The notes under the pieces are model-generated. The model searched no databases, was not told the origin of the DNA, and was given only the letters and a program-made list of their open reading frames with translations. Source: a virus. Taken from it: DNA of 38,960 bases. The DNA lies in IMG/VR virus record IMGVR_UViG_3300038548_000038, positions 1 through 38,960 of that record; one strand, written 5' to 3'. The position numbers and the translations under genes are program-made. Shown piece after piece: positions 7,984 through 32,286 of the stretch; positions within the stretch are counted from its first letter, which is position 1; each line of letters starts with the position of its first letter.

Positions 7984-8175
7984 ATGAAGATAGCAACCGT
8001 AAAAATAGAATTTCATCATTTACCCGATTTTATATTAAGTAAAGAAGAATATGATAAACAAGGAAAATTCAATGGATTTTGTAAAGAAAATTGCATAAAC
8101 AAATCGGATGTAAAAAAAGTACATCACATCCAATTAGAAGAAAATAAATACCCAACCCAAGAATGGGAAGGTTAA
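7984..8175 (+). CDS. Small unknown protein, 63 aa
   Basis: A soluble 63-residue protein with beta start (KIATVKIEFHHLPDF) and a Cys pair (GFCKENCI) plus a HH in the C-terminal half, possibly metal-binding. It is 3 nt downstream of the CAP gene and followed by 89 non-coding bases, so it ends a sub-operon. No family recognised. Confidence 0.55.
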   Translation: MKIATVKIEFHHLPDFILSKEEYDKQGKFNGFCKENCINKSDVKKVHHIQLEENKYPTQEWEG

Positions 8176-8264
8176 TACATTAAAATTTTAGTTTCTGATT
8201 CCTTCTGAACGTTCGCTCCATGTGATTTTAGTAGGTAGGAATTGGAACTATTTAAAACGTATTT
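8176..8264. other. 89-bp intergenic gap
   Basis: This holds a short GAACGTTC palindrome near its middle but no recognisable TAnnTTTG box, terminator or small gene. It separates the RecT/CAP group from the HNH/nuclease/methyltransferase group, so a promoter may lie here, unseen by eye. Confidence 0.3.
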
Positions 8265-26020: not shown

Positions 26021-27684
26021 TCATAAAAGCAAATACAGAGGACGCCGTAACTAGTGTTGATAGTCTAAGCACTAGCGTAGAGGGCTTAGGTGATGCTGCA
26101 ATAGATACTTCAAAAGATATTTCTGGAATTAAAAAAGCAAGCCAAACAGCGAGTAAAGGAATTAAGGGTATTGGTGTTGCATTCAAGGCTTTAGGTATTG
26201 GAATCATCGTTGCGTTATTTGCTAAACTCGCGGAGATACTTAGCAGGAATCAGAAGGTAATGGATTTACTAAGTAATGTAATGAAAACCCTTGAGATTGC
26301 TTTTAAAGATTTATTTTCTTTCGTTACCGATAATTTCATGCCAGCATTTGAGAGAGTGAAAACGTTCTTTCAAAATCTTACATTTAAACAAGTTGGCGAA
26401 GCGATAAAGAAGAATATTATAGAACGGTTTAATAGCGTTTTAGATGTTATTGGATTCATAGGTAAAGCGTTTAAAAAATTAAGAGAGGGAGATTTACAAG
26501 GTGCTCTTGAGGAAATAAAGAATGCTGGTAAGGAAATGGTTGACGTTTTTACGGGTGTGGATGGAACGGTTGACAAAGTTACCGAAACAATCACGAAAGG
26601 GGCTAAAGCAATATCCAACTATGCTAAACAATCATTCAACGCAGCCAAAGCAATAACAGACTTAGGTAATCAAGCATTAATAGCCGCAGCGATTAACCAG
26701 GGAATCATTGAGCAGTACGATAGGCAAGCCGAACAACTAAGACAGATCCGAGACGATGACGCTAAAAATATAGAAGTACGTATTGAGGCTAACAGAAAAT
26801 TAGGTGAGGTTTTAGAAGAGCAACAGGAAATCATGCTTAGAAATGCTGACCTAGTAATCGCAGCAGCTCAAAATGAATTTGATTTAAACGGTAACATCGA
26901 AAACCAAATTGCATTAATTGAAGCGCGTAATGAAAAGTTAGCGATACAAGCACAAATAGAAGGATTCAGAAGTGAGCAGTTAGTAAATATTAACGGACTA
27001 TTAAGAGAACAAGGAGAGATTGAACAAGCCGCTTTAGATGCTATAATTGAGCAAGAAAAAATAAAAGAAGATTTAAGAAAAAAAGCGATAGAAGATTTAA
27101 GAAAATTAGCAGATGAAGAGATAGCAATACAGAAAGAAATATCAGCATCAAAAATGGAAGGGTTAGATATTTTAATAGATTTAGCAGGGAGAGAATCCGC
27201 ATTAGGTATCGCCTCTTTATTAGGGAAGCAAGCATTAGCAGTACAAGAATTATTAATAGACTTAGGCGCAATAAAAAGTAAAGCAACAAGGACATTGGCA
27301 GAAGCTTCTTTAGATGGAGCAAAAGCAACTTCATCAGTAGCAACAGGATTTGCAGCAACGTTATCATTAGGATTTCCAGCAGCAATACCAGCACTAGTTG
27401 GATATGCAGGTGCAGCCGTTGGAATTGTTACAGGTGTTCTTAGTGCTGTAAAAGGAAGTAAAAGTGTAGCGGCTAGATTTGGAGCGATCGGTGGAGGGGG
27501 AAGTCAAGCCTCTATACCTACAGCAACAGCACCATCTTTTAACCTAGTCGAAGGAACAGGAAGCAATCAAATTGCAGAAGGATTAGCACGACAAGACAAT
27601 CCTATACGCGCCTTTGTCGTATCTAGTGACCAAACAACAGCAGCGGCTATTGATAGAAATATCGTGAAAAATTCTAGGCTTTAA
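25999..27684 (+). CDS. Tail tape measure protein, 561 aa
   Basis: Long helical protein: early segment (SVDSLSTSVEGLGDAAIDTS), hydrophobic stretch 50-75 (GIKGIGVAFKALGIGIIVAL), long coiled coils (about 220-390, with QAEQLRQIRDDDAKNIEVRI), and a C-terminal Gly/Ala hydrophobic part (GFPAAIPALVGYAGAAVGIV). This is the profile of a tape measure protein, which sets tail length and opens the way for DNA. It is short for the family. A relation of about 0.15 nm per residue would predict a tail near 84 nm; that is a rule of thumb. It fits the preceding G/GT chaperones. Confidence 0.85.
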   Translation: MAITKEIIIKANTEDAVTSVDSLSTSVEGLGDAAIDTSKDISGIKKASQTASKGIKGIGVAFKALGIGIIVALFAKLAEILSRNQKVMDLLSNVMKTLEIAFKDLFSFVTDNFMPAFERVKTFFQNLTFKQVGEAIKKNIIERFNSVLDVIGFIGKAFKKLREGDLQGALEEIKNAGKEMVDVFTGVDGTVDKVTETITKGAKAISNYAKQSFNAAKAITDLGNQALIAAAINQGIIEQYDRQAEQLRQIRDDDAKNIEVRIEANRKLGEVLEEQQEIMLRNADLVIAAAQNEFDLNGNIENQIALIEARNEKLAIQAQIEGFRSEQLVNINGLLREQGEIEQAALDAIIEQEKIKEDLRKKAIEDLRKLADEEIAIQKEISASKMEGLDILIDLAGRESALGIASLLGKQALAVQELLIDLGAIKSKATRTLAEASLDGAKATSSVATGFAATLSLGFPAAIPALVGYAGAAVGIVTGVLSAVKGSKSVAARFGAIGGGGSQASIPTATAPSFNLVEGTGSNQIAEGLARQDNPIRAFVVSSDQTTAAAIDRNIVKNSRL

Positions 27685-27941
27685 AAAGTTCTTTGTCCAT
27701 TATCAGTGGAATAAATAAGTTAATCACTTTGTAATATATTGCAACCTGCCCATCAGATATATGAAATCCTCTGGTTGGGGACTCGAACACCCGCTTCACT
27801 TACACCCTACTTTACTTTCAGGTATGATACTACTTATAAACCTCTACAATAAACACAACTGCTGATACAGTTTAATAACTTTACGTAGAGTCTAGTATGA
27901 CCGTACCCACATTATCGTTTATCTTCGTAGCAAAGAACTTT
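27685..27941 (+). ncRNA. Putative structured RNA closing the tape-measure/HNH gap
   Basis: A spacer between convergent genes, bounded by an exact 11-bp inverted repeat: AAAGTTCTTTG (27685-27695) and CAAAGAACTTT (27931-27941), one arm directly after the tape measure stop and the other 4 nt from the HNH stop. Inside, CCCATCAGA (27749-27757) pairs with TCTGGTTGGG (27770-27779) with a bulge and a U-G pair; GGT/ATACT (27821-27831) pairs with AGTAT/ACC (27894-27902); CTCTAC (27842-27847) with GTAGAG (27885-27890); AACTG (27857-27861) with CAGTT (27868-27872). U-G pairs favour the plus strand. No protein-coding frame of note. It does not match a family I know. Confidence 0.5.
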
Positions 27942-27945
27942 AATT

Positions 27946-28425
27946 TTAAATATTTATATATGTTTTATTCGTAACTATTCGTTGAATTATACTCCTATTA
28001 CAATTGTAAAAATCAGCAATCTCTTGTTGTGTTTTATGCTCTTTGTGCATATCTCTAATATGTAACACATCATCTGAAGTCAAATTACTCCTGCCATGCT
28101 CAACACCTAACGACTTGCCTTTCGTGGGCTTTCTTAATCCAATATCGTAAGCGTGTTTCAAATTGTGAGAGTGATTACACCACTCCAAATTAGACAATTC
28201 ATTATTTAATTTATTACCATCTATATGGTTTATGATAGTATAATTATTAGGATTAGGTATAAATGCAATGGCTAATAGCCTGTGTAGTTTAGTTGTTTTT
28301 CTATGTAACGACACAACCTTGTATCCTGTTTTAGATATGCATTGATTTAATATAGCCCCGGTCCACTCGTTTAGCACTGTGCCTCCTTTTGTTATTGAGT
28401 ACTTACTATCGATCTTATGTTTCAT
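27946..28425 (-). CDS. HNH homing endonuclease (HNH_3), 159 aa
   Basis: Core HNH_3 motif: KLHRLLAIAFIPNPNNYTII, then NHIDGNKLNNELSNLEWCNH and SHNLKHAY, with the HNH residues of phage homing nucleases. The C-terminal HTH (SDDVLHIRDMHKEHKTQQEI, then ADFYNCNRSIIQRI) recognises DNA. It is on the minus strand, converging with the tape measure gene, so it is a free-standing selfish gene inserted in the late block. Its own promoter lies at 28504-28538. The ORF is intact. Confidence 0.88.
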   Translation of the reverse strand: MKHKIDSKYSITKGGTVLNEWTGAILNQCISKTGYKVVSLHRKTTKLHRLLAIAFIPNPNNYTIINHIDGNKLNNELSNLEWCNHSHNLKHAYDIGLRKPTKGKSLGVEHGRSNLTSDDVLHIRDMHKEHKTQQEIADFYNCNRSIIQRIVTNKTYINI

Positions 28426-28503
28426 ATTGTTTATTTAAAAAGCACTAGGATTCAAAACCTTTTTGCAGACCATTAATCCGACAAATTCATTTTAATACTT
28501 ATG

Positions 28504-28538
28504 CAAATATACTTATTTCTTAGTGATTATGTAACAAA
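28504..28538 (-). promoter_or_regulatory. Promoter of the first homing endonuclease
   Basis: Minus strand TTTG at 28538-28535, a 23-nt spacer and TATATTTG at 28511-28504, a perfect -7 match. TTTGTTAC begins the upstream box, as in the promoter of the second homing nuclease. A leader of about 70 nt precedes the start codon. Confidence 0.55.
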
Positions 28539-28548
28539 CACGATATCT

Positions 28549-28565
28549 ATTAGTTATTATAGTAG
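28549..28565 (+). promoter_or_regulatory. Variant of the repeated late leader element
   Basis: ATTAGTTATTATAGTAG matches 14 of 17 bases of TTTAGTTATAATAATAG, which occurs in the exact repeats at 18611 and 32414. It lies 21 nt before the ATG of the prohead protease gene. Confidence 0.4.
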
Positions 28566-28586
28566 AACAATCAATAGTTTTTATTT

Positions 28587-29681
28587 ATGAAGGTCTACGA
28601 AGCCGTGTTTAATCAAGCAAAGAATAAAGGAGTATGGGGTATTTCTTTAGTGGAAGACCCAGCGATGGAAGGCGAGTTCTTAGCGCTATCAAAACAGGCT
28701 AAGATTGAGTTAAAAACTTTAGACGAAGAGCAACGTATTATTATTGGTTTAGTCTTAGAACCTAACAAAAAGATTTACAGAAATCAAGGCGGCGAAGAGT
28801 TTGAAATATTCTTTTCAGAAGAGACTATAAAAGACTTATCACACAACTTTTTTAAACAAGGGTATCAAACTAATTCAAGTATAGAACATAGCGACTCCAT
28901 AGAGGGGGTTTCTTTTGTTGAAAGTTGGATTGTATTGGATTCTAATAATGACAAGTCTAACGCTCTAGGGTTTAACTATCCAAAAGGCTCATGGGTTGCA
29001 ACGATGAAAGTTGATAGTGATGAGGTTTGGGAAAGTTACGTTAAAGACGGCAAAGTAAAAGGCTTTTCAATAGATGCCTTTGTAGAATTACAGGAAGTTA
29101 AATTAAATAAGGATAAACAAATGGAAGATCAAAAAGAAAAGAAATTCTTAGATACTGTAAAAGACGCTATTAAGTTGGCTCTGACTCCGAAAGAGAAAGA
29201 GATCAAACTAGGGAGTGTTACTTCAGTAGATGGAATGGTATTCATGTACGAGGGCGAAACTCCACAAGTTGGAGGTGCGGTTTGGATCATCGCTGAAGAC
29301 GGCGAAACCAGAGTTCCAGTGCCAGTTGGAGATCACGCTTTAGAAGGCGGGGGTGTTTTAGTGGTAACAGAAGAAGGAATCATTGGAGAAGCGAAAGCAG
29401 AAGAGCCTGCCGAATTAGGAGATCCTGGAGCAGGAGCAGCACAACCAGCAGCAGCAGCGGAAGCAGTAGACCAGATTAAATCAATCTTGGTTAAGTTCGC
29501 GGAAGAGGCGAAAGCGGAAAGACTAGAGTTTGAAAAAGGTATCAAGGCAGAACTTGAAACTTTTAAAGGGCAATTAGTAGAGTTTTCTAATAAGCCAGCA
29601 GACGACAAAACAAAGAGCGCACCAACGCCTAGAAATGGAAAATCAAAGAATTTAGTAGAATTTTTAAATAACAATTTATAA
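28587..29681 (+). CDS. Prohead protease (XkdF-like) with C-terminal scaffold, 364 aa
   Basis: Residues about 50-165 fit an XkdF-type phage protease domain: IIGLVLEPNKKIYRNQGGEE, SIEHSDSIEGVSFVESWIVL (His in EHS), SWVATMKVDSDEVW and GKVKGFSIDAFVE. Residues 175-364 are charged, Ala/Glu/Pro-rich and helical (AEEPAELGDPGAGAAQPAAA, EEAKAERLEFEKGIKAELET), typical of a scaffold. A fused protease/scaffold cleaves and guides capsid shell assembly. It is immediately upstream of decoration and capsid genes. Confidence 0.75.
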   Translation: MKVYEAVFNQAKNKGVWGISLVEDPAMEGEFLALSKQAKIELKTLDEEQRIIIGLVLEPNKKIYRNQGGEEFEIFFSEETIKDLSHNFFKQGYQTNSSIEHSDSIEGVSFVESWIVLDSNNDKSNALGFNYPKGSWVATMKVDSDEVWESYVKDGKVKGFSIDAFVELQEVKLNKDKQMEDQKEKKFLDTVKDAIKLALTPKEKEIKLGSVTSVDGMVFMYEGETPQVGGAVWIIAEDGETRVPVPVGDHALEGGGVLVVTEEGIIGEAKAEEPAELGDPGAGAAQPAAAAEAVDQIKSILVKFAEEAKAERLEFEKGIKAELETFKGQLVEFSNKPADDKTKSAPTPRNGKSKNLVEFLNNNL

Positions 29682-31587: not shown

Positions 31588-31616
31588 AAAACCCTATCAT
31601 TATTTGATGGGGTTTT
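31588..31616. terminator. Bidirectional terminator (capsid operon / second HNH gene)
   Basis: AAAACCCTATCA (31588-31599) pairs with TGATGGGGTTTT (31605-31616), 12 bp with one wobble U-G on the plus strand, loop TTATT, with T tracts on both strands. It ends the tube protein transcript and encodes the last residues of the minus-strand HNH gene. Confidence 0.85.
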
Positions 31617-32286
31617 CTGATTTAAAGTCATGAGGTGCTTTTTGATATGCTAAATGAGCATCGTATTCAGTTTTAAAATATCCTAAGAATTTAGATTTCC
31701 CTTTTACGGTTTTAAATACTTGCCACTTATTAAATCTTCTATGCCAAGAAACGCCTTTATAATTAGAGCTAAAGGATGGTTTGTTTTTATCTACAATACC
31801 CTGTACGGATTCACCATTATTTACAAGGATTACGGCTTCTTGGTACGCTATGTTAGCTTCTTTTGGTGTGTTGAAATTACCTAGTCTAAACGCTTTTCCC
31901 TCTACATTTATGATAGATGTCCATTTATTACCACTGGGACGCGATCCTTTAAATTTAGACTCTTTATATATATTATTTCTATGTGGTATAAGCTGTAGGT
32001 TCGCTAGCCTATTGTCTGTTTTTACATTATTTATATGATCTACAACCAGCCCTTTATATCCGTTCGGTTTATGGTTTAAAAATGACATTGTTACTATTTT
32101 ATGAACTCTTGTTCTTTTAGACCCCCCGTTCTTGCATAAATTCACTTGAAGATACCCACCGCTCCCTTTTAATGTTGAAAGTATCTTTTCGGAAAGCCTC
32201 CCCTTTCTAACTAAACTCTTAATTCTGCCTAAATCGGATACTTTGTAAATACCCTCATACCCTTTAATATATCTCCATATTTCCAT
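31600..32286 (-). CDS. Homing endonuclease NUMOD4-HNH-AP2, 228 aa
   Basis: N-terminal NUMOD4-like WRYIKGYEGIYKVSDLGRIK (residues 4-23), HNH_3 core with VVDHINNVKTDNRLANLQLI (about 80-99), and two AP2-like modules: KWTSIINVEGKAFRLGNFNT and NYKGVSWHRRFNKWQVFKTV, each ending AYQEA/AYQKA. A classical free-standing homing nuclease architecture; AP2 modules contact the target. Minus strand, own promoter, shares a bidirectional terminator with the tail tube gene. It appears intact. Confidence 0.9.
   Translation of the reverse strand: MEIWRYIKGYEGIYKVSDLGRIKSLVRKGRLSEKILSTLKGSGGYLQVNLCKNGGSKRTRVHKIVTMSFLNHKPNGYKGLVVDHINNVKTDNRLANLQLIPHRNNIYKESKFKGSRPSGNKWTSIINVEGKAFRLGNFNTPKEANIAYQEAVILVNNGESVQGIVDKNKPSFSSNYKGVSWHRRFNKWQVFKTVKGKSKFLGYFKTEYDAHLAYQKAPHDFKSENPIK

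Follow-up and report, generated by a model that had tools for sequence, protein, structure and literature searches.

The window (the whole stretch of 38,960 nt analyzed here) contains a spacer between two converging genes, a plus-strand gene that ends at position 27684 and a minus-strand gene encoding an HNH endonuclease that ends at position 27946. An earlier reading, made from the sequence alone, had described an exact 11-bp inverted repeat closing this spacer, and we confirmed both the repeat (27685-27695/27931-27941) and the placement of its arms, one right after the TAA stop codon at 27684 and the other 4 nt from the HNH stop. The plus-strand gene had been taken for the tape measure gene; its profile match is instead phrog_21537 (virion structural protein, head and packaging). 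A Bacteroidota-type −7 box upstream of the HNH gene is a possible promoter of a transcript containing both the HNH gene and the RNA described below. When the HNH protein was used as a query against viral contigs, no relative was found. Contig L002 encodes a protease protein identical to that of the window and is 99.5% identical to it in DNA from 28501 onward; before the point matching 28501, its sequence is unrelated to that of the window. Furthermore, the two flanking genes are separated by only ~38 nt in contig L016, and the HNH-RNA unit therefore lies in a variable accessory slot. A second HNH endonuclease gene, at 31600-32286 (minus strand), is again flanked by plus-strand genes of the structural region. 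By its portal protein, the window phage is nearest to an Inhavirus, and the closest isolate is Nonlabens phage P12024L (38% identity).

The first leads came from a distant DNA search in which the spacer served as the query: a faecal phage scaffold (E value of 2e-8) and the Cellulophaga phages phi4:1 and phi17:2 (E value of 1e-4); the Cellulophaga match falls under a short annotated "hypothetical protein" inside the RNA. Used as a pattern, the Cellulophaga motif matched 61 viral contigs, most of which carried the full element in an orientation corresponding to the minus strand of the window. Further members came from a second pattern (5′ end) and a third pattern (3′ end), which brought the number of distinct copies in phage contigs to about 50. 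The copies are typically 160 to 285 nt long. Pattern matches without P1 (L029, L032, L049, L051, L066, and L076) were excluded as probably due to chance; with the covariance model introduced below, L032 and L076 scored 30.7 bits over only part of its length. The T-arm motif GGGTGTTCGAGTCCCC, tried as a family signature, returned eight contigs that were chance or unrelated matches, and a search of viral contigs for the motif CCTGAAAGTANAGTANGGTG returned none.

We built a covariance model (R1) from 29 relatives, excluding the window. The model matched 27684-27942 on the minus strand over its full length (model positions 1-184) with a score of 87.1 bits and an E value of 1.9e-13 (802 kb searched), and with an E value of 9.1e-15 in a second search; within the window, this was the sole significant match. 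The window copy has P1, P2, the base of P3, P4, P5, P6, and the complementarity between the P4 and P6 loops (Table 1), and the free minimum-energy fold of the minus strand recovered P1, P2, P3, P4, and P6. Collectively, these data indicate that the spacer almost certainly encodes, on its minus strand, a structured RNA of a previously uncatalogued family.

Table 1. Coordinates of the structured RNA, its parts, and neighboring features in the window
Feature	Position	Strand	Remark
Whole structured RNA, 259 nt	27684-27942	−	5′ end at 27942, 3 nt past the HNH stop; R1 match
P1 5′ strand, AAAGTTCTTTG	27931-27941	−	Pairs with 27695-27685; covaries
J1, CTACGAAG	27923-27930	−	Conserved junction; family consensus [A/C]TTGAAG
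P2 5′ strand, ATAAAC	27917-27922	−	Pairs with 27854-27849
P3 arm	27874-27916	−	Variable in the family; base GATAA/TTATT pairs in homologues
P4 hairpin, AACTG-TATCAG-CAGTT	27857-27872	−	Nearly invariant in recovered members, partly through the search pattern
P2 3′ strand, GTTTAT	27849-27854	−	Partner of ATAAAC
J2/5, TGTAGAGG	27841-27848	−	Conserved junction
P5 arm	27711-27840	−	Variable, unusually long here; pairing in homologues
P5 helix, ATAAGT/ACTTAT	27837-27832/27720-27715	−	Read from sequence
Insert in P5 arm, with T-arm-like GGGTGTTCGAGTCCC	27735-27824	−	Related to tRNA-array spacer of faecal phage scaffold MT839121.1
P6 hairpin, TCCA-CTGATAA-TGGA	27696-27710	−	All 4 pairs covary; CTGATA complementary to P4 loop TATCAG
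P1 3′ strand, CAAAGAACTTT	27685-27695	−	Followed by short T-run overlapping stop codon of converging structural gene
HNH endonuclease, 159 aa	27946-28425	−	Pfam HNH_3, phrog_59; directly upstream of RNA, same strand
Bacteroidota-type −7 box, TATATTTG	28504-28511	−	Upstream of HNH gene; read from sequence; candidate promoter

In the hand-registered members, the layout runs from P1 through J1 to P2, which surrounds P3 and P4, and continues with J2/5, P5, P6, and the return strand of P1. Partner-swap tests with best-register scoring gave 0 of 1,000 results as good as the real partners for each of P1, P3, P5, and P6. When 29 members were aligned with MAFFT, leaving out the window, 90.4% of cells were paired in the named structure compared with 38 to 52% when it was slid, and 16 double-changed pairs were counted against 7.0 in shuffles, with none of 500 shuffles reaching as high. 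On a tree of 49 members, we counted 29 compensatory branch events, nearly all of them in P1 (16) and P6 (11), compared with 1.1 ± 1.5 for shuffled partners (maximum of 8 in 500 shuffles); these counts are approximate, since the same short columns also served to build the tree, and P1 and P6 were each registered so as to pair best. Support for P2 and P4 consists mainly of G-U variants and a few double changes; contigs L050, L055, and L058 carry a P2 variant, ACAAAC/GTTTGT, and alternative P4 stems occur in L097 and in the second copy of L086. The conservation seen in P4, P1/J1, and P6 is partly selected, because the patterns by which members were recovered fix parts of these elements. RNAalifold recovered P1 and P4 from alignment A2 and missed P2 and P3, probably owing to the unalignable arms.

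The two hairpin loops of the core offer a further contact. The P4 loop UAUCAG is complementary to the P6 loop CUGAAA or CUGAUA, and a small number of telling loop changes keep this complementarity: UUAG/CUAA replaces UCAG/CUGA in L091, the second L086 copy has UUCAG/CUGAA, and L097 has UAUC/GAUA. These pairs hardly vary among the members, independent changes in them are few, and no compensatory branch event was scored there. We consider a contact between the P4 and P6 loops probable, and it would lock the core into a compact form. As judged from the homologues, the comparison shows a predicted core of P1, P2, P4, and P6, in which P1 joins the two ends of the RNA and which bears two variable arms, P3 and P5.

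This structure bears out the proposal of the sequence-only reading that the spacer holds a compact structured RNA with a closed junction, and the suggested search for homologues with compensatory changes yielded about 50 copies with strong covariation on the named pairs of the minus-strand structure. The 11-bp repeat corresponds to P1 and is supported by the homologues, as is the AACTG/CAGTT helix (27857-27861/27868-27872), which corresponds to P4. The other three of the four internal helices proposed at that time proved wrong, and the conserved structure differs from them. CTCTAC/GTAGAG and GGT-ATACT/AGTAT-ACC are present in the sequence but are not conserved as pairs in homologues, and the long nested arm that they were thought to form would join a variable segment of the P3 arm to the conserved junction after P2 or to the P5 arm, thereby crossing P2. 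Similarly, CCCATCAGA/TCTGGTTGGG exists as sequence but sits in the P5-arm insert unique to the window copy. Folding energies relative to shuffled sequence (z of −1.28 for the plus strand and −1.04 for the minus strand) are unremarkable on both strands, so that the energy measure named in the sequence-only reading fails and the support for the RNA is comparative.

The arms behave differently from the core. P3 and P5 cannot be aligned between most members, and random pairs are ~50% identical, which is the level of chance alignment. Nevertheless, certain members share one arm. L050 and L058 have identical P5 arms (100%), a shared core, and upstream flanks that are 93% identical, while their P3 arms are 47% identical, the level of random pairs. 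Conversely, L055 and L058 have identical P3 arms (100%), with P5 and the flanks at or near the random level. P3 is common to L041 and L047, P5 is common to L043 and L054, and the P3 arms of phi4:1 and phi14:2, which belong to different phage families, are ~91% identical. At an orthologous tRNA-Glu/tRNA-Ala site, L031 and L046 keep the flanks and the core and differ in the arms, and the two copies carried by one phage (G009) have P3 in common but not P5. Exchange of arms at the conserved core is the simplest reading of these patterns. The P5 arm of the window copy is unusually long because it contains an insert related to the tRNA-array spacer of MT839121.1 (87% identity over 54 nt, E value of 2e-8; 74% over ~90 nt). 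A tRNA-array spacer in L025 (690-893, minus strand), with a T-arm-like hairpin and located ~60 nt upstream of a tRNA-Ser gene, is related to this insert.

The copies are placed in varied surroundings. At six loci (L031, L036, L042, L044, L046, and L062), the RNA lies 5 to 13 nt from same-strand tRNA genes, in one placement being flanked by tRNA-Glu and tRNA-Ala. In 21 of 53 copies, a same-strand open reading frame stops ≤17 nt upstream or just inside P1, a raw count given with no background rate; profiling of 10 of these 21 upstream reading frames assigned them to unrelated families or to no family. A TAnnTTTG box, of the Bacteroidota promoter type, occurs ≤60 nt upstream of 9 of the 53 copies, against a background of 4%. 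Such placement next to tRNAs, stop codons, and promoter-like boxes favors a predicted stable free RNA over a cis element of a single gene. The suggestion that the RNA is carried with the HNH gene holds for the window, where the two are adjacent; the link is only local, however, since an HNH gene was recognized directly upstream of the window copy alone among the 53 copies, whose upstream reading frames were profiled in part. tmRNA genes are present in the carrier contigs L044 (5476-5870) and L030 (980-1359, minus strand), the tmRNA match in L030 lying ~88 nt upstream of the RNA.

Dozens of otherwise different phages carry the RNA, several of which are known to infect marine Bacteroidota, and the carriers include Cellulophaga phages phi4:1 (Lightbulbvirus) and phi14:2 (Crassvirales). 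Of the records chosen through the loci, R1 matched 17 of 24 in one set and 16 of 17 in another, and the records picked as carriers of the RNA match. Two copies are present in records G009, G022, G803, and G813. L045 has a full copy followed directly downstream by a weak second match (28 bits) at 8075-8193 (minus strand), which resembles a tandem copy that has decayed. R1 found no match in the window relatives G001-G006 or in Nonlabens phage P12024L, and since these records of close relatives are without it, the RNA is not essential to the group of the window phage. Among host genomes (~790 in all), one of 397 matched in the family of a Lutibacter MAG, and the same MAG was the only match among 395 of the class, in a search whose strict filters lose weak matches; the contig of this MAG may itself be viral. 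As this MAG stands alone among the family and class genomes, the RNA belongs to phages and is seldom, if at all, carried in chromosomes. Annotated frames cover some of the copies: phi4:1 gp168 ("hypothetical protein," NC_021788.1, 129616-129774) overlies the RNA and is probably a spurious frame, and phi14:2 gp003 and gp004 (NC_021806.1, 1321-1619), over or beside the RNA, are probably spurious as well and were dropped from RefSeq in 2020. Downstream of the RNA in several carriers lies a second conserved element with ACATAAAGATACTAGCAGTAATGTTAGAT and GAGTTCTCAGCAAGTAGT blocks, seen at L058 (minus strand), L129 (1895-2010), L087 (7359-7512), L078 (minus strand), L042 (minus strand), and L111 (3195), and also in phi14:2; it has no Rfam match at the gathering level and is possibly another structured RNA.

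We lean slightly toward reading the members of the family as stable phage RNAs that act in trans, their core being fixed and their arms exchangeable. As to its parts, a free and stable RNA is reasonably probable, and the chances that the arms are specificity modules are evenly balanced. The RNA would be transcribed with the preceding gene or tRNA, or from its own promoter, and the transcript would be trimmed to a stable free form whose ends are shielded by P1. Where tRNAs adjoin the RNA, RNase P and 3′ trimming enzymes would process them and thereby release it. The RNA would then act in trans, with its near-invariant core bound by one conserved partner during infection and with the P3 and P5 arms, exchanged as cassettes, setting a variable second contact. 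Within the window, the longest antisense complement of the RNA is 12 nt, as in shuffles. As a speculative extension that we regard as doubtful, hypervariable arms swapped between unrelated phages might give each RNA its own second target, for instance as a decoy for host RNA-directed defense.

An unlikely alternative, though the strongest one, is a cis-acting 3′ element in which P1 and the T-run protect, trim, or end the preceding transcript without any action in trans. The short T-run after P1 would fit such a role, as would the copies that directly follow same-strand stop codons and the others that follow tRNAs. However, some copies immediately follow a promoter-like box and not a gene, no intrinsic terminator (G+C-rich stem plus T-run) was found at 27600-28600, and a probable loop-loop contact with two long variable arms seems far beyond what termination or end protection needs. 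Even less probable is a selfish or recombination-linker element, whose core would be mainly a shared recombination sequence carrying arms and flanks, with little function as RNA. The recombination of arms and flanks around the core and the four two-copy records, including G009 with its common P3 and different P5, would fit such an element, but the compensatory changes in P1 and P6 argue that pairing is kept rather than sequence identity, and the same-strand placement near tRNAs fits expression. The small closed core, the conserved junctions, and the probable loop-loop contact would also suit a self-cleaving ribozyme or another catalytic RNA, which we consider improbable given that no Rfam ribozyme matched and no cleavage motif was recognized. 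Finally, the preference of the sequence-only reading for the plus strand, as a 3′ UTR or processed RNA of the structural-gene operon, can practically be dismissed: although the plus strand alone folds about as well relative to shuffles, the homologues and the covariance model place the RNA on the minus strand, in the same orientation as the HNH gene, and in other phages the tRNA neighbors and adjoining upstream genes lie on the RNA's own strand.

The family is of broader interest in several respects. One well-supported fold without a match in Rfam 15 recurs across phages as different as Lightbulbvirus, Crassvirales, and the window phage. Because the host strains of two isolated carriers, phi4:1 and phi14:2, are named, its expression, structure, and deletion are directly testable. 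The independent exchange of arms, in turn, is a natural experiment in the diversification of an RNA by phages.

As the sequence-only reading had supposed, the family is not a known one: none of the 4,227 families of Rfam 15 reached its gathering threshold in the window, and even at lax thresholds none matched the RNA of other members. Weak matches to STnc220, GibS, and others were far below the gathering score and were judged to be chance. ARAGORN called no tRNA or tmRNA in the spacer and, at relaxed thresholds, gave a few weak, scattered, low-scoring calls. A literature search, with subscription papers and preprints largely outside its coverage, found no paper on the RNA. Phage tRNAs and tmRNA resemble the family in occurring in the same arrays, the L030 copy lying near a tmRNA; the family core, however, has no tRNA-like end or tag frame and received no calls from ARAGORN or Rfam. 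The HNH gene adjoining the RNA in the window phage recalls group I introns with HNH homing endonucleases, but the copies are intergenic, the upstream genes of other copies are unrelated, and the Rfam intron models gave no match, in agreement with the earlier view that a group I intron core is absent.

The packaging RNA of phi29, known from phi29-like phages, has its ends joined by a helix and engages in loop-loop pairing. Our RNA resembles it in size, in the end-joining helix, and in its probable loop-loop pairing, but differs in occurring in unrelated phages, sometimes in two copies, in being absent from close relatives, and in giving no Rfam match. GOLLD and ROOL are "ornate" RNAs of phages and prophages found near tRNA islands and containing kissing loops, and GOLLD consists of a conserved and a less conserved part, with a linker that sometimes holds phage tRNAs (PMC12286853). 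Like them, the family described here comprises phage-borne orphan structured RNAs, often located by tRNA islands, with a probable loop-loop contact. However, GOLLD and ROOL greatly exceed it in size (GOLLD often has more than 800 nt) and differ in core and sequence, and their Rfam models matched neither the window RNA nor other members. GOLLD and ROOL are its nearest counterparts in habit, as separate families, and what is new, as far as these comparisons reach, is the RNA family and its predicted core.
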